This document shows positions 26,142 to 40,937 of a stretch of DNA of 64,000 nucleotides, one piece after another; the stretch's first letter is position 1; each line of letters opens with the position of its first letter. The position numbers and the translations under genes were made by a program. The DNA comes from Thermoplasmata archaeon (GTDB lineage Archaea; Thermoplasmatota; Thermoplasmata; Lutacidiplasmatales; UBA184), in the NCBI GenBank assembly GCA_022750195.1, contig JAKIWE010000001.1, positions 1,052,672 to 1,116,671 on the forward strand. Direction: 5' to 3'. The notes beneath the pieces are model-generated. The model ran no database searches, was not told the DNA's origin, and saw only the letters and a program-made list of their open reading frames with translations.

Positions 26142-26249
26142 GGGCCGGTAGATCAGCGGAAGATCGCTACCTTGGCAAGGTAGAGGCCGCGAGTTCAAAG
26201 GGGGAGCGGGTCCGGCCGTCCCGCTCGCCGGAAGCTCTCGCCCGGTCCA
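26142..26249 (+). tRNA. tRNA-Ala (anticodon GGC) with T-loop intron
   Basis: Acceptor GGGCCGG (26142-26148) pairs with CCGGTCC (26242-26248) including the G3:U70 pair that identifies alanine tRNAs; discriminator A at 26249. D-stem GATC/GATC, anticodon stem CTACC/GGTAG with loop TTGGCAA (anticodon GGC at 26174-26176), five-base variable loop, T-stem GCGAG (26189-26193)/CTCGC (26237-26241). The T-loop TTCAAA is interrupted by 36 bases before T60. The mature tRNA is 72 bases; CCA is not encoded. A TATA box precedes it. Confidence 0.92.
26200..26235 (+). other. 36-base intron in T-loop of tRNA-Ala (position 59/60)
   Basis: The precursor folds as a bulge-helix-bulge. After the T-stem, exon TTCA (26194-26197) pairs with intron GGAA (26230-26233) with an A.G mismatch at one end; three-base bulges are AA^G (26198-26200) and GC^T (26234-26236), cut marks shown. 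The intron body is a ten-position stem (26201-26210 with 26220-26229, one G.G mismatch) and a nine-base loop. Removing it leaves a normal seven-base T-loop, TTCAAAT. Confidence 0.88.
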
Positions 26250-32794: not shown

Positions 32795-32904
32795 TGGGCC
32801 TGTCGGGAGTCTCCGTCGCCCGCCCGCGTCGGGCGGGTCGACTTTTGAACCCGAGACACCTGGCTTAGAAGGCCAGTACTTTGTCCAGGCTAAGCTACAG
32901 GCCC
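32795..32904 (-). tRNA. tRNA-Arg (anticodon TCT) with T-loop intron
   Basis: Read on the minus strand: acceptor GGGCCTG (32904-32898) pairs perfectly with CAGGCCC (32802-32796), discriminator A at 32795. D-stem GCTT/AAGT, anticodon stem CTGGC/GCCAG with loop CTTCTAA (anticodon TCT), variable loop GTGTC, T-stem TCGGG/CCCGA. The T-loop TTCAAA is interrupted by 35 bases before T60. Mature length is 75 bases without CCA. A TATA box sits about 29 bases upstream, over the stop codon of the DUF99 gene. Confidence 0.92.
32809..32843 (-). other. 35-base intron in T-loop of tRNA-Arg (position 59/60)
   Basis: Same plan as the tRNA-Ala intron. Exon TTCA (32849-32846) pairs with intron GGAG (32814-32811) with an A.G mismatch and one G.U pair; bulges are AA^A (32845-32843) and AC^T (32810-32808). 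The intron body is GTCG plus, after one bulged A, CCCGCCCG paired with CGGGCGGG and CGAC, closed by a three-base loop. Removal gives the normal T-loop TTCAAAT. Confidence 0.88.
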
Positions 32905-36319: not shown

Positions 36320-36419
36320 CGTTGGGGTCGGAGGCCGCTCCGAAGCGCGCCGAGCTCCCGGATCGCGTCGGCGCTCTCTACGCGCGCGTTCGTGAACGCG
36401 ACCTTCTCGCGCGAATTCT

Positions 36420-36445
36420 CGAGGTAAAACGACGATTCTACCTCG
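36420..36445. repeat. 7-bp inverted repeat upstream of the ribosomal operon promoter
   Basis: CGAGGTA (36420-36426), twelve bases, TACCTCG (36439-36445). It lies about 30 bases before the strong TATA box of the L3 operon, where an activator or repressor could bind. No regulator is known. Confidence 0.5.
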
Positions 36446-36472
36446 GTGCTCGGACGCGCGCGACCGTGCTCT

Positions 36473-36479
36473 TATATAC
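36473..36479 (+). promoter_or_regulatory. TATA box of ribosomal protein operon
   Basis: TATATAC within an otherwise GC-rich spacer. The transcript would start near 36502, giving a leader of about 27 bases containing GGAGGA (36505-36510) before the L3 ATG. Confidence 0.7.
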
Positions 36480-36528
36480 GGTACCTAACTCCCCGCCCCC
36501 CACCGGAGGAAGGACCCCCTATCGACCG

Positions 36529-37530
36529 ATGGCTCGACGTCACCGCCCTCGCCGAGGTTCGCTCGGCTACTCCCCCCGTTCCCGTTCGATCCGGCCCGTT
36601 CCTAGGATCCGTTCCTGGGCGGAAGGTCCGAAGAGCCCCGCCGTCGACGGTTTTGCCGGCTTCAAGGTGGGCATGAGCCACGCGTTCATCGTCGACTACC
36701 GCAAGCGCTCCACGACCGCCGGCCAGGAGGTCTCGGTACCGGTGACCGTGGTCGAGGTGCCGCCGCTCAAGGTCGCTGCGGCGCGCATCTATCGGGACGC
36801 GCCGTACGGGAGCCGCGTGGTCGCCGAGGTCTGGGGCGGGTCGCGCTCCGACGACCTCGACCGACGGCTGCCGGCCCATCCCGAGAGCGGCACGGACGCG
36901 ACCGGCCATTTCAACAGGGTGGAAGGCGACGAAGTGCGCCTCGTGGTCCACACGCAGCCGGCGCTCGTCACCGGAGTGCCTACGAAGGTTCCCCAACTGT
37001 TCGAGGTGCGCGTCGGCGGAGAGAAGTTCGACGACCGGCGTGCCTTCGCGCTCAAGCAGCTCGGCCAGGAGCTCAGCGTCGACCAGCTCGCCCGCGAGGG
37101 GGAGTTCCTCGACGTGCTCGGGGTGACGAAGGGCAAAGGGTTCCAGGGCCACACCAAGCGCTGGGGCGTCAAGCTCCAGCCCCGCAAGAACTCGAAACAC
37201 CGCCGGATGATCGGGACGCTCGGTCCGCACAACCCGAGCTTCGTGACGTACCGGATCCCCCAGGCCGGCCAGATGGGCTACCACCGGCGCACGTTCTACA
37301 ACATGCGCATCCTCAAGATCGTCAAGGATCCCCGCCAGGAGCCGATCACCCCGGTCGGTGGGTTCCCCCATTACGGCGAGGTCCGAAGCGCCTGCTTGGT
37401 GCTCCACGGCTCCCTCCCCGGACCGGCCCGGCGCCTCCTGCGCTTCCGGCTGCCGATCCGCAGCCGGGTGAGCTCCGTCGAGAAGGTCGACATCCGTTAC
37501 CTGAGCACGCGCTCGAAGCAGGGAGGATGA
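36529..37530 (+). CDS. rpl3: 50S ribosomal protein L3
   Basis: A 333-residue archaeal uL3. MARRHRPRRGSLGYSPR opens the protein; VGMSHAFIVDYR, GVTKGKGFQGHTKRW and MGYHRRTFYNMRILKI are family marks. It is placed first in the cluster behind the TATA box at 36473. The open frame extends upstream to 36322, but the ATG at 36529 matches known archaeal L3 starts. The stop overlaps the L4 ATG by four bases. Confidence 0.97.
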   Translation: MARRHRPRRGSLGYSPRSRSIRPVPRIRSWAEGPKSPAVDGFAGFKVGMSHAFIVDYRKRSTTAGQEVSVPVTVVEVPPLKVAAARIYRDAPYGSRVVAEVWGGSRSDDLDRRLPAHPESGTDATGHFNRVEGDEVRLVVHTQPALVTGVPTKVPQLFEVRVGGEKFDDRRAFALKQLGQELSVDQLAREGEFLDVLGVTKGKGFQGHTKRWGVKLQPRKNSKHRRMIGTLGPHNPSFVTYRIPQAGQMGYHRRTFYNMRILKIVKDPRQEPITPVGGFPHYGEVRSACLVLHGSLPGPARRLLRFRLPIRSRVSSVEKVDIRYLSTRSKQGG

Positions 37531-38360
37531 GCGACCCCGCCCCGGCCGAGACGCACTCCGAGACGCCCGGCGAGCCGCACACCGTCCACCACCGGGTCCA
37601 CGTCGTCGGCGCGGACGGCAAGCCGGGAAAGACCGTCAACCTCCCCGCCGCCTTCTCCGAGGCGATCCGCCCGGACCTCATCCGGCGCGCCGTGGTCGCG
37701 GCGCAATCTCGCCGCCGCCAACCCCACGGCACCTCGCCGACCGCGGGCCTCCGGCACTCGGTCGAATGGTCCGGGAAGGGCAAGGGCGTGGCCCGAACGC
37801 CGAGACTGATGGGTTCGATGCGGGGCGCCCAGTCGCCGAACACCGTGAGCGGCCGGCCGGCCCATCCGCCGCGCATCGAGACGATCTGGGCGAAGAAGAT
37901 CAATGTCAAGGAACGGCGTCGGGCCTTCCGCTCGGCGCTCGCCGCCACGCGCGAGGCGACGCTCGCCCGCGCCCGGGGCCACCTCGTGCCGGAGGAGCTG
38001 CACCTTCCGATCGTCCTCGACGACCCGGTCGAGACGCTCGGAACGACCGCCGAGGCGCGGGCGCTCCTCGTCAAGCTCCAACTGTGGGCCGATGTCGACC
38101 GGGCGGACGATTCGACCCACCAGCGCGCCGGGCGCGGCAAGCGCCGGGGACGTCCCCGCCGTCAAGCTCGGAGCCTTCTCGTGGTCACGAGCGACGCCGG
38201 GAAGGGCCGCGCGTTCTCCAATCTGCCGGGCGTGGACGTGGTCCCGGTCGGACGGCTCGGCACGGAGGACCTCGCGCCGGGCGGCGACCCCGGACGGCTC
38301 ACGCTGTTCGCCCACGCGGCGCTCGAGCGGCTCGCCGCGCGCGACGGAGCGAGCGCATGA
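37527..38360 (+). CDS. rpl4: 50S ribosomal protein L4
   Basis: A 277-residue uL4 in the archaeal/eukaryotic form. VFSEAIRPDLIRR-like sequence (AAFSEAIRPDLIRRAV), the exit-tunnel loop GKGVARTPRLMGSMRGAQSP and a C-terminal part ending with GRLTLFAHAALERL are visible. The first 35 residues are an acidic, His-rich leader before the conserved core. ATG overlaps the L3 stop; its own stop overlaps the L23 ATG. Confidence 0.96.
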   Translation: MSDPAPAETHSETPGEPHTVHHRVHVVGADGKPGKTVNLPAAFSEAIRPDLIRRAVVAAQSRRRQPHGTSPTAGLRHSVEWSGKGKGVARTPRLMGSMRGAQSPNTVSGRPAHPPRIETIWAKKINVKERRRAFRSALAATREATLARARGHLVPEELHLPIVLDDPVETLGTTAEARALLVKLQLWADVDRADDSTHQRAGRGKRRGRPRRQARSLLVVTSDAGKGRAFSNLPGVDVVPVGRLGTEDLAPGGDPGRLTLFAHAALERLAARDGASA

Positions 38361-38620
38361 CCGACCTGAGGCACCGGATCCTGCTCCACGCCTACGTGAC
38401 GGAGAAGTCGATGGACGAGATGGAGCGGCAGAACAAGCTCGAGTTCGTCGTCGACACCCGAGCGACCCGGGCCGAGATCCTGCGCGCCGTCGAACAGCTC
38501 TACAACTGCAAGGTCGCCAAGGTGAACACCAAACGCGTACGCGTCGGAAAGATCGCGACCGTCCGGTTCAAACCGGAATATTCCGCGGAGGACATCGGCA
38601 GCCGCGCCGGGGTGTTCTGA
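38357..38620 (+). CDS. rpl23: 50S ribosomal protein L23
   Basis: An 87-residue uL23 near the tunnel exit, where SRP and SecY dock. AYVTEKSMDEMERQNKLEF, split as AYVTEKSMDE and MERQNKLEF, NCKVAKVNTKRVRVG and KIATVRFKPEYSA are typical. Start ATG overlaps the L4 stop by four bases; its stop overlaps the L2 ATG by one base (TGATG). Confidence 0.96.
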   Translation: MTDLRHRILLHAYVTEKSMDEMERQNKLEFVVDTRATRAEILRAVEQLYNCKVAKVNTKRVRVGKIATVRFKPEYSAEDIGSRAGVF

Positions 38621-39342
38621 TGGGTAAGCGGATCATCTCACGGCGCCGGGGGACCGGCACCGGCCCGTACAGTTCTCCGAGCCACCTTCACCACGGCGCG
38701 GTCTATCTGCCCCCGGCCTCCCTCGTCGGACCGGGGACCGTCACGGCCCTGCTGCCGGCGCCGGGACGGACGGCCCCCGTGGTCGAGGTGCGCGGCCCGG
38801 ACGGCGCCACCGTTCGCCTCATCGCCCCGGCGGGGATCGCCACGGGCGACACGATCTCGTTCAACGCCGGCGCGGTCGACCGCGGCAGCGTGCTGCCGCT
38901 CGGCTCGATCCCGGACGGCACGCTGATCTCCAATATCGAAGTGAATCCGTTCGACGGCGGCCGGCTCGTCCGGGCCGCCGGCGCGAGCGCGCTCGTCGTC
39001 GCCCACGCCGGGCGCGAGGTCACCATCCAGCTCCCGAGCGGCGCGTTCAAGAGCCTGCTCGGCACCTGCCGCGCCCAGGTCGGCGGCGTCGCCGGGGCCG
39101 GGCGCGGCGAGCGGCCGTTCATCAAGGCGGGGAAGAAGGTCCTCGCCTACCGCTCGCTCGCCAAGGCCGCCTTCAAGGTCCGCGGCGTGGCGATGAACCC
39201 TGTCAACCACCCCCACGGCGGCGGTGCCCACCAGCACGTCGGCCGCCCGAGCACCGTCTCGGCGGGAACGTGGCCGGGGGCGAAGGTCGGGCGGTTCTCG
39301 CCGAAGCGCGGGAAGCGTAAGGGCCAGCGGGGAGGCAAGTAG
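38620..39342 (+). CDS. rpl2: 50S ribosomal protein L2
   Basis: A 240-residue archaeal uL2, a peptidyl-transferase-centre protein. GKRIISRRRGTGTGPY opens it, VEVRGPDGATVRLIAP is in the OB domain, and the universally conserved MNPVNHPHGGGAHQHVG carries the histidine close to the active site. It ends in a basic GKRKGQRGGK tail. Confidence 0.97.
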   Translation: MGKRIISRRRGTGTGPYSSPSHLHHGAVYLPPASLVGPGTVTALLPAPGRTAPVVEVRGPDGATVRLIAPAGIATGDTISFNAGAVDRGSVLPLGSIPDGTLISNIEVNPFDGGRLVRAAGASALVVAHAGREVTIQLPSGAFKSLLGTCRAQVGGVAGAGRGERPFIKAGKKVLAYRSLAKAAFKVRGVAMNPVNHPHGGGAHQHVGRPSTVSAGTWPGAKVGRFSPKRGKRKGQRGGK

Positions 39343-39344
39343 CC

Positions 39345-39770
39345 GTGCCGAAAGGTCGACGGACGAAGAAGGCGGAGGTCCGCCGCAAGCGGGAGTTCAC
39401 GCTCCGGGGGCGGACGCTCGAGGAGCTCCTGGCGTTGCCGTTGCCGGAGCTGGGCAAGCTGCTCCCCGCGCGCGCCCGACGGTCGATCAAGCGGGGCTTC
39501 ACCGACGAGCAGCGCTCCTTTCTCGAGAAGATCCTCGTTCAGCCGAAGGATCAGGCGTTGAAGACCCACGTTCGCGACGCGCTCGTGCTCCCCCAGCACG
39601 TCGGCCACCGGGTCGCCGTGCACACGGGCAAGGAGTTCAAGGAGGTCGAGATCCGGCCGGAGATGATCGGCCACTACTACGGCGAGTTCGCCCTGACCCG
39701 CCGTTTCGAAAAGCACTCCGGCCCGGGCGTCGGCGCCACGCGGTCGTCGAAGTTCATGCCGCTCAAGTGA
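39345..39770 (+). CDS. rps19: 30S ribosomal protein S19
   Basis: A 141-residue uS19 with the archaeal N-terminal extension (about 55 residues, basic). Core marks are VRDALVLPQHVGHRVAVHTG, split as VRDALVLPQHVG and HRVAVHTG, then EFKEVEIRPEMIGHYYGEF. It binds the 16S rRNA 3' domain head. GTG start two bases after the L2 stop. Confidence 0.96.
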   Translation: MPKGRRTKKAEVRRKREFTLRGRTLEELLALPLPELGKLLPARARRSIKRGFTDEQRSFLEKILVQPKDQALKTHVRDALVLPQHVGHRVAVHTGKEFKEVEIRPEMIGHYYGEFALTRRFEKHSGPGVGATRSSKFMPLK

Positions 39771-39780
39771 GGGGAGGGCG

Positions 39781-40239
39781 ATGCGGGGGTACACCTACAC
39801 GGCGGAACCGGACGCGACGGTCGCCCGGGCCCGCGGGGTGGAGATCCCGATCTCCCCGAAGAAGACCTACGAGGTGCTGAACGCCATCCGCGGGTTGCCG
39901 CTCACGAAGGCGCGGACGCTCCTCGAGGACGTCATCGAGCTCAAGCGCGCCATCCCGTTCCGCCGGTACAACCAGGAGACCGCCCACAAGCGCTCGGTCG
40001 GTCCGGGGCGGTACCCGAAGAAGGTGGCGAAGTCGGTCCTCTCGATCCTCCAGAACGCGGAAGCGAACGCCGAGTTCGAGGGGATGGACACCGAGACGCT
40101 GTACGTGAAGGTCGCCGCCTCCTCGCGCGGACGCATCCGCCGCGGCAACATGCCGCGGGCGCACGGTCACGCGACCGCGTGGAACGAGCAGACCACCAGC
40201 ATCGAGATCGTGCTGAGCGAGCGCGGGGAGAAGGCGTAA
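39781..40239 (+). CDS. rpl22: 50S ribosomal protein L22
   Basis: A 152-residue uL22 lining the exit tunnel. ISPKKTYEVLNAIRGLPLTKA and the hairpin RGRIRRGNMPRAHGHAT are recognisable (quoted in part). A GGGAGG ribosome-binding sequence precedes the ATG by a few bases, one of the clearer Shine-Dalgarno sites in the cluster. Confidence 0.96.
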   Translation: MRGYTYTAEPDATVARARGVEIPISPKKTYEVLNAIRGLPLTKARTLLEDVIELKRAIPFRRYNQETAHKRSVGPGRYPKKVAKSVLSILQNAEANAEFEGMDTETLYVKVAASSRGRIRRGNMPRAHGHATAWNEQTTSIEIVLSERGEKA

Positions 40240-40241
40240 GG

Positions 40242-40937
40242 ATGGCGAGCGAGCGGAAGGTCATCCAGGAGGCGACGCGTCGTGTCCTGCTCAAGGACTA
40301 CCTGATCCAGGAGAGCGCCCGCGCCGGCTTCGGGGGTCTCGACATCCAGCGCACCCCGATGGGCACGCGCGTGACGCTCATCTGCGAGCGCCCGGGGATC
40401 CTCATCGGCCGACGCGGCGAGCTCATCAAGCAGTTGACCCAGGACATCGCTGCCAGGTTCCAGCTCGACAACCCTCAGATCGAGGTCCAGGAGGAGCGGC
40501 AGCCGGCGCTCAACGCCCAGCTGATGGCGGAGAAGCTCGCCTCCACGCTCGAGCGGGGCTGGCACTTCCGCCGTGCCGGCCACTCGACCGTCCGGCGGAT
40601 CATGGAGTCCGGCGCCCGCGGCTGCCAGGTGATCCTCTCCGGCAAGCTCACCGGCGAGCGCCACCGGACCGAGCGGTTCAAGGCCGGGATGATCAAGTAC
40701 TGCGGCGAGGCCGCGCACCTCCACATCGCGAAGGGGTTCTACCAGGCGCGCCTCAAACCCGGGGTCATCGGCGTCAACGTCTGGATCATGCGGCCTACCG
40801 CGAAGCTCCCGGACGAGATCCACGTCAAGGGCGTCGAGGAGCGGCCGAAGCCGGTCGTCGAGGTGCTGCCGCCGCTCCCGCCGGCCGAAGCGGCCGTCGT
40901 CGCCCCCGTCGAGCCGGTCGGGGAGCCGCCCGTATGA
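40242..40937 (+). CDS. rps3: 30S ribosomal protein S3
   Basis: A 231-residue uS3. The type II KH domain has RPGILIGRRGELIKQL; the second domain has ARGCQVILSGKLTGERHR. It forms the mRNA entry channel. The C-terminal 30 residues are Pro/Val/Ala-rich and not conserved. ATG 40242 is taken two bases after the L22 stop; the longer frame is a shadow of L22. The stop overlaps the L29 ATG. Confidence 0.96.
   Translation: MASERKVIQEATRRVLLKDYLIQESARAGFGGLDIQRTPMGTRVTLICERPGILIGRRGELIKQLTQDIAARFQLDNPQIEVQEERQPALNAQLMAEKLASTLERGWHFRRAGHSTVRRIMESGARGCQVILSGKLTGERHRTERFKAGMIKYCGEAAHLHIAKGFYQARLKPGVIGVNVWIMRPTAKLPDEIHVKGVEERPKPVVEVLPPLPPAEAAVVAPVEPVGEPPV

Follow-up and report, generated by a model that had tools for sequence, protein, structure and literature searches.

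Introns outside the canonical position of tRNA genes have been described in several archaeal lineages, and what we say of them holds for the portions of the cited sources that are covered here. BHB introns in the T-loop or T-arm have already been reported (PMC6379350, PMC12397907, PMC3293823), as have noncanonical tRNA introns of Thaumarchaeota (PMC8450103). Non-canonical BHB introns occur in the Crenarchaeota, notably the Thermoproteales, and in Thaumarchaeota, ARMAN and Caldiarchaeum, whose endonucleases are described as heterotetrameric or built of three units, often with a specificity loop (PMC4090602, PMC4033280, PMC12397907, PMC6379350); in the Thermoproteales the introns of different tRNAs are reported to resemble one another (PMC4090602, PMC4033280). 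The Asgard groups Atabeyarchaeia and Freyarchaeia also have many tRNA introns, often at non-canonical positions, with 92–95% of tRNA genes interrupted and often several introns in each (PMC11291895); the portion covered describes no T-loop design. Euryarchaeota with alpha4 or alpha'2 enzymes are described as having fewer than 10% of their tRNA genes interrupted, at the canonical site (PMC4090602). Reviews link the alpha'2 enzymes to few, canonical-site introns (PMC4090602, PMC4033280), hold that alpha4 and alpha'2 enzymes cleave only canonical BHB motifs (PMC4033280) and reserve the efficient removal of relaxed-motif introns for the (alpha beta)2 and epsilon2 enzymes (PMC6379350); a research paper ties enzyme strictness to the missing loop (PMC12397907). 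Variety of intron sites is said to accompany specificity loops in the endonuclease (PMC4090602, PMC4033280, PMC12397907, PMC6379350). Against so strict an enzyme rule speak three thermophilic methanogens, which are among the archaea with both canonical and noncanonical intron positions (PMC3218864), and the cleavage of BHL motifs by homodimers: Archaeoglobus EndA acts on full pre-tRNA to excise BHL introns at 37/38 (PMC6379350), Ferroplasma EndA cuts minimal BHB substrates, and cleavage of BHL motifs is attributed to homodimers as well (PMC8707768).

The intron described here comes from a genome (G000) of 2.45 Mb in 52 contigs, estimated as 95.65% complete and 5.57% contaminated, and lies in a window that is the whole 64,000-nucleotide stretch of DNA analysed. 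Its BHB geometry is shared with the non-canonical introns of Crenarchaeota, Thaumarchaeota, ARMAN and Caldiarchaeum, but the genome has a loop-less two-repeat EndA. The introns of its different tRNAs are unlike one another, in contrast to those of the Thermoproteales, with which the motifs are compared by description only, and 19 of 44 tRNA genes are interrupted, far from the Asgard figure. The enzyme resembles the alpha'2 EndA of Archaeoglobus, Thermoplasma and Ferroplasma in its two fused repeats, C-terminal catalytic residues and lack of a specificity loop, yet there are many introns, and they sit in the T-loop. A paper on the Lutacidiplasmatales (PMC9287336) mentions tRNAs, and a term search of its main text returned neither 'intron' nor 'splicing'; in the part of the literature covered we found no report of T-loop introns in this lineage, which is weak evidence of novelty.

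tRNA-Arg(TCT) and the tRNA genes of the genome

The window holds two tRNA genes by Rfam, tRNA-Arg(TCT) and tRNA-Ala(GGC), with the following features.

32795..32904, minus strand: tRNA-Arg(TCT), exons plus T-loop intron (from the sequence and the parser; matched by covariance model R1, locus L030)
32844..32904, minus strand: 5′ exon of tRNA-Arg(TCT), positions 1–59, ending in ..CTCGGG TTCAAA
32850..32854, minus strand: T-stem 5′ strand TCGGG (49–53), the outer helix of the BHB; partner strand at 32803-32807
32846..32849, minus strand: T-loop TTCA (54–57), the exon half of the central helix
32843..32845, minus strand: 5′ bulge, A58 A59 ^ intron nucleotide 1, with a cut predicted after A59 from the sequence and the BHB rule
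32809..32843, minus strand: 35-nt intron between T-loop positions 59 and 60
32815..32842, minus strand: intron hairpin of 12 bp with one bulged base
32811..32814, minus strand: GGAG, the intron half of the central helix (U54-G wobble, U55-A, C56-G, A57•G)
32808..32810, minus strand: 3′ bulge, AC ^ T60, with a cut predicted before T60 from the sequence and the BHB rule
32795..32808, minus strand: 3′ exon, comprising T60, T-stem CCCGA, acceptor strand CAGGCCC and A73
26142..26249, plus strand: tRNA-Ala(GGC) with T-loop intron and G3:U70 acceptor (R1 and R2 matches)
26200..26235, plus strand: 36-nt intron of tRNA-Ala(GGC), positions 59/60, the same site as in tRNA-Arg(TCT)

A preliminary description had placed a 35-base insertion at 59/60 in the T-loop of tRNA-Arg(TCT), and the parsed gene (32904..32795, intron 32843..32809) confirms it; that description called this gene the second and only other tRNA of the window and placed its insertion at the same site as in the first, and tRNA-Ala(GGC) indeed carries an intron, of 36 nt, at 59/60. 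The design given there stands as regards the strands (TTCA and GGAG), the 12-bp stem (which has one bulged base) and both bulges (AA^A and AC^T), but the central helix consists of three pairs and an A57•G mismatch rather than four full base pairs. The minimum-energy fold predicted for tRNA-Arg(TCT) does not contain the central helix. Near this gene, at 36322-40937 of the window, lie open reading frames that by eye resemble ribosomal proteins L3, L4, L23, L2, S19, L22 and S3, in archaeal operon order.

Across the genome we count 44 tRNA genes, 43 from RF00005 plus tRNA-Leu(TAG), which was recovered with R1 and the parser; two of the 45 RF00005 matches are duplicate tRNA-Ile 3′ fragments (L050, L051) and were left out, and two Leu-GAG copies on different contigs were counted separately. 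The T-loop is interrupted in 13 of the 44 (~30%): Arg-TCT, Arg-TCG, Ala-GGC, Asn, Asp, His, Gln-CTG, Glu-CTC, Gly-TCC, Leu-TAG, Ser-GCT, Ser-CGA and Ser-GGA. T-loop introns are therefore widespread in the genome, as had been surmised from two interrupted tRNAs out of two, a sample that overstated the rate. The sole His, Asp and Asn genes found are all among the 13, 'sole' being provisional in an assembly that is 95.65% complete. By eye, anticodon-loop introns are present in four further genes (Met, Tyr, Trp and Leu-TAA), and D-loop introns in three (Arg-GCG, a Met, and Leu-TAG besides its T-loop intron), which brings the interrupted genes to the 19 of 44 given above; the D-loop introns appear more relaxed in motif than the T-loop ones. 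Gly-TCC was counted from model matches and the sequence, the parser having missed it because it demands T33 and the gene has C33. The anticodon loop of this tRNA reads CCTCCAA in G000 (L042), G052 (L136), G014 (L142) and G042 (L156), so that C33 replaces the near-universal U33 in these four genomes; T33 is present in G006, G017 and G023.

Geometry and covariation of the splice motif

We propose that in the pre-tRNA the T-stem would act as the outer helix of the BHB, and that T54-T55-C56-R57 would pair with a GGAR or CGGA strand at the 3′ end of the intron to make the central helix. Of the two 3-nt bulges, one would consist of A58-A59 and the intron's first base, the other of its last two bases and Y60, and the remainder of the intron would be a hairpin. 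EndA would cleave at two predicted sites, behind A59 and ahead of Y60, and RtcB would ligate the exons. The T-arm would thus offer a ready exon half of a BHB, in that a standard T-arm contains the outer helix, one strand of the central helix and the A58-A59 bulge; an intron would have to bring only two bases, a stem to close the motif and a strand of the form CGGA or GGAR.

The motif was examined in 82 distinct T-loop-intron tRNAs from ten genomes, with introns of 26–47 nt, parsed from loci of the source genome and 81 loci of its relatives. The parser keeps T-loop introns of at least 15 nt, requires T33 and builds in a 5-bp T-stem; at that setting genome G001 gave none. The 15 of the 81 relatives' loci (L105–L185) without a parsed T-loop intron of at least 15 nt include intron-free genes, the 13–14-nt introns of G001, a gene with its intron elsewhere (L181) and the Gly-TCC genes of G052, G042 and G014, with C33.

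Y60 is T in 80 of the 82 tRNAs and C in two. Position 54 pairs as U-A in 56 and U-G in 24 (other in 2), position 55 as U-A in 55 and U-G in 27, and position 56 as C-G in 81 (other in 1), while the fourth position, 57 against intron −6, shows G57-C in 34, A57•G in 36, A57-U in 8 and other combinations in 4. With the 3-nt bulges imposed by the register, four standard central-helix pairs are present in 41 of the 82 motifs and at least three in 80; 38 of the 41 incomplete helices fail at the fourth pair alone (mostly A•G), and two motifs have just two pairs. The strict BHB form, two 3-nt bulges with a 4-bp helix between them, is thus found, in full in only half of the cases.

The base at intron −6 changes with exon base 57: among the 36 tRNAs with G57, 34 have C there, as against one of the 46 that have A57 (Fisher p = 1.6e-19, overstated as the sequences are related). 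Asp, Asn, Arg-TCT and Arg-CCG show both states of position 57 across genera, and −6 switches along in 27 of 27 entries. Where 57 is A, G stands at −6 in 36 of 46 tRNAs, compared with 38% G in the introns (binomial p = 4e-8, likewise overstated by relatedness); because G exceeds compositional expectation, A57•G appears to be preferred over A57-U.

Helices flank the motif on both sides, with the intron closing pair present in 76 of the 82 and a T-stem of 5 bp by construction of the parser. In register, 85% of intron-stem positions pair, versus 39% after shuffling (maximum 44% in 200 rounds) and 42–53% when the register is slid by 1–3 nt. In 22 T-arms of equal length the structure is paired in 91.9% of cells and covariation scores 0.674, whereas shuffled alignments score 0.206 and none of 500 reaches the observed value; both sides have changed in 14 of 18 pairs, namely 9 of 9 in the intron stem, 4 of 5 in the T-stem and 1 of 4 in the central helix, which taken alone has 81.8% of cells paired, the shortfall being mostly A•G. 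The T-loop intron motif is far above chance, and the central-helix pairing together with the covariation of 57 and −6 bears out the earlier suggestion that the conserved T-loop itself provides half of the splice motif.

Removal of the intron also restores recognizable tRNAs. With the intron taken out and artificial flanks added, ARAGORN assigned the correct anticodon, with each end placed to within 3 nt, to 75 of the 82; one more had the correct anticodon with a wrong end, and for six no gene was reported. With the intron in place it found both ends for none, the right anticodon with a wrong end for 30 and no gene for 52. The six that were unread after removal, four Leu-TAG and two Lys-TTT, all have a second intron.

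The splicing enzymes

EndA is encoded by a single gene in the source genome. The 353-aa protein consists of two fused repeats, and PF01974 and PF02778 each match two stretches of it; the best NCBIfam profile is NF006795, below its cut-off, and TIGR00324 scores above its own. Relatives at 90% and 65% identity come from MAG SubAcS15-120 and from Candidatus Lutacidiplasma silvani, Lutacidiplasma being a genus of the order Candidatus Lutacidiplasmatales in the phylum Thermoplasmatota. On the strength of these names the source genome is taken for a MAG of that order, a group of soil archaea. The catalytic residues Y291, H299 and K330, all in the C-terminal repeat, are invariant in 21 of 21 orthologues and were mapped on the M. 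jannaschii chain 1a79 through FRxY, HxxYL and VRK, where we take the corresponding residue numbers to be 115, 125 and 156. A CSL or ASL insertion (the crenarchaeal or ARMAN specificity loop) between YG and LSLLE is present in none of the 21 orthologues, the site having been located from the insertion in the chimeric 3p1y chain. Over its own length, an AlphaFold model (mean pLDDT 91.9) matches two two-repeat EndA structures, 5x89, a fusion from Methanopyrus, and the RNA-bound 2gjw. Two fused repeats, Tyr/His/Lys in the C-terminal repeat and the lack of CSL or ASL would place the protein with the alpha'2-type enzymes, the best structural match by score being the Methanopyrus subunit fusion 5x89, which is not an alpha'2 enzyme. 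A gene for the RtcB ligase is also present.

Since tRNA T-arms share the TTCR sequence, an intron at 59/60 could reach strict 3-4-3 geometry without an enzyme of relaxed specificity. The ready-made T-arm half is therefore compatible with an EndA that is strict and has no loop, at any rate in those cases, half of the total, in which all four pairs are present.

Distribution, history and meaning of the introns

Relatives were surveyed with two models. R1 is a covariance model built from nine class I genes, with which ten of 105 relatives were searched, the loci parsed being among the matches listed; in the MAFFT alignment behind it the variable loop is off by one column in some rows, as are the intron ends of G57 and A57 tRNAs, and because it also matches intron-free tRNAs, intron calls were decided by length and parsing. 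R2 models the T-arm/intron module from 22 gap-free T-arms (three rows from the source genome, where all 13 T-loop introns score at least 23.9 bits and intron-free tRNAs at most 14.3). Four weak R2 matches in that genome show no tRNA by eye, and a pattern search gave seven matches, three of them T-loop introns and four tied to no tRNA found, with one match for the reversed-pattern control. R2 survey counts, obtained under strict filters with at most 15 candidates scored per genome, are lower bounds: real cases are missed, including both introns of G002, and the Asn gene of the source genome (23.9 bits) is unlisted in the genome search.

R2 matches at E <= 1e-3 in 160 of 400 genomes of the class. 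Each of the 95 genomes drawn from family f1, that of the source genome, has 3–13 matches, and no f1 genome is among the unmatched ones listed; of the three genomes that represent the order outside f1, two match, and so do 63 of 302 beyond the order, mostly with one match each and with up to five in family f25. Thirty loci from 20 matched non-f1 genomes yielded 23 that parse as T-intron tRNAs and seven that do not, three of the 23 (L296, L297, L316) being doubtful for their improbable variable-region lengths. A T-loop intron combined with a second intron is found again in tRNA-Lys(TTT) of several other families of the class (L300, L309, L310, L311, L312).

Across the f1 genera g1–g7, all nine genomes examined have a T-loop intron in Ala-GGC and Asp, at least eight have one in each of Arg-TCT, Arg-TCG, His, Asn and Gln-CTG, and at least five in Glu-CTC and Leu-TAG; Gly-TCC is parsed with one in 5 of 9 and visible by eye in the remaining four, and an isoacceptor missing from this tally may be an undetected or unlisted gene. 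The comparison with intron-free relatives that had been suggested gives precise empty sites: Glu-CTC of G009 and G010 is intron-free, its exons continuous through TTCAAATCCCGC, and Asp, Arg-TCT and Ser-CGA lack the intron cleanly in the outgroup family f3 (G002, G003), which has T-loop introns in Arg-CCG and Ala-CGC. G001, of family f2, has two introns in each of Asp, Glu-CTC and Arg-TCG, a T-loop one of 13–14 nt and another near the anticodon, and Gly-TCC and Gln-CTG have the same two-intron look by eye. These are the shortest T-loop introns in the analysis (L124, L133, L380), and those of 13 nt show how short the motif may become. As f2 shares interrupted isoacceptors with f1, some members of the set are probably older than the separation of f1 and f2. 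A D-loop-side intron of tRNA-Arg(GCG) is found in both f1 (L044, source genome) and f2 (L185/L393, G001); the D-loop introns may be old as well.

Motif, covariation, empty sites, conservation and the genes for both enzymes lead us to read the insertion as a protein-spliced archaeal BHB tRNA intron at 59/60, which would be cut out and its exons joined in the cell; we put the probability of this at about 92%. That the insertion stays in place, the tRNA working with an enlarged T-loop or the gene being a pseudogene, would suit an EndA without a broad-specificity loop, but is highly improbable given that intron −6 covaries with exon base 57, that for His, Asp and Asn the interrupted gene is the only one found, that all 95 family genomes drawn have motif matches and that 75 of 82 tRNAs are sound once it is removed. 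How the introns came to be in so many tRNAs is a separate matter. Insertion into the T-loop by transposition, the mechanism put forward for Thermoproteales, would suit the single, near-universal target sequence, and other isoacceptors are interrupted in f3 (Arg-CCG, Ala-CGC) and occasionally elsewhere (Arg-CCG in G006); we nevertheless consider it unlikely, because the set of interrupted isoacceptors holds steady from genus to genus and the introns of any one tRNA follow descent. With the motif removed, intron identity between the source genome and its nearest relative, G052, is 0.70–1.00 for nine tRNAs, and the mean over all same-tRNA pairs is 0.579 (245 pairs). Introns of different tRNAs are about equally unlike within one genome (mean 0.540, best 0.76, 338 pairs) and between genomes (mean 0.522, 2738 pairs, in which one pair, a point in favour of transposition, reaches 0.88), so the likeness among different tRNAs of one genome that marks the Thermoproteales is not seen here. 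These identities fit descent and show no recent copying between tRNAs, and the spread that the preliminary description envisaged finds no support in them. The T-loop introns seem to be mostly old and vertically inherited; an older spread among tRNAs may have preceded the origin of family f1. The survey of this genome and its relatives that had been called for gives 13 of 44 genes interrupted here and matches in all 95 f1 genomes drawn.

Another question is why the introns are kept. An anti-integration role of tRNA introns has been put forward as a general idea in the portion of PMC3293823 covered, and interruption of the T-arm attachment site of integrases could preserve them here. The clear tRNA-borne integration in the source genome does sit at an intron-free gene, tRNA-Ile(GAT), and in a survey of 30 integrase loci, out of related-integrase matches in 66 of 106 genomes, the six with a tRNA within 1.5 kb all involve intron-free tRNAs (Ile-GAT 2, Thr-TGT 4); an ARAGORN call with a 647-base intron (L366) was set aside. 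But six non-independent cases at a 30% intron rate are not significant (0.7^6 ~0.12), and 24 of the 30 loci have no credible tRNA nearby, so the idea is doubtful at present. Outside the window, at G000:C11:447714-475848 (L342, L343), the intron-free tRNA-Ile(GAT) lies beside a tyrosine integrase, with two 3′ tRNA fragments ~22 and 28 kb off, one adjoining a 92%-identical integrase remnant; the arrangement looks like tandem integrations.

Returning to the BHB intron, a wider reading would join these points: TTCRAA would let a strict, loop-less EndA accept 59/60 introns in almost any tRNA, intron position would be limited by the formation of a strict BHB and not by enzyme type, A57•G would be a positively selected and recognised form of the fourth pair instead of a mismatch that is put up with, and the introns would be kept as they destroy integrase attachment sites. 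As a whole we offer it only tentatively and think it more probably wrong than right.

For annotation the consequences are practical. RF00005 scores 12 of the 13 T-loop-intron genes at 18–37 bits, eight of them under the gathering score of 29, and misses Leu-TAG; ARAGORN gives the Arg gene of the window a false 3′ end and misses the Ala gene, its second call lying elsewhere. Because of this low sensitivity, such genomes can seem to lack a tRNA for His, Asp or Asn. As regards the biology, this genome has about 30% of its tRNA genes interrupted in the T-loop alongside a loop-less EndA, in a part of the tree held to have few, canonical introns; either the rule on enzymes has to be restated with reference to motif geometry, or this EndA has an unrecognised way to relax.
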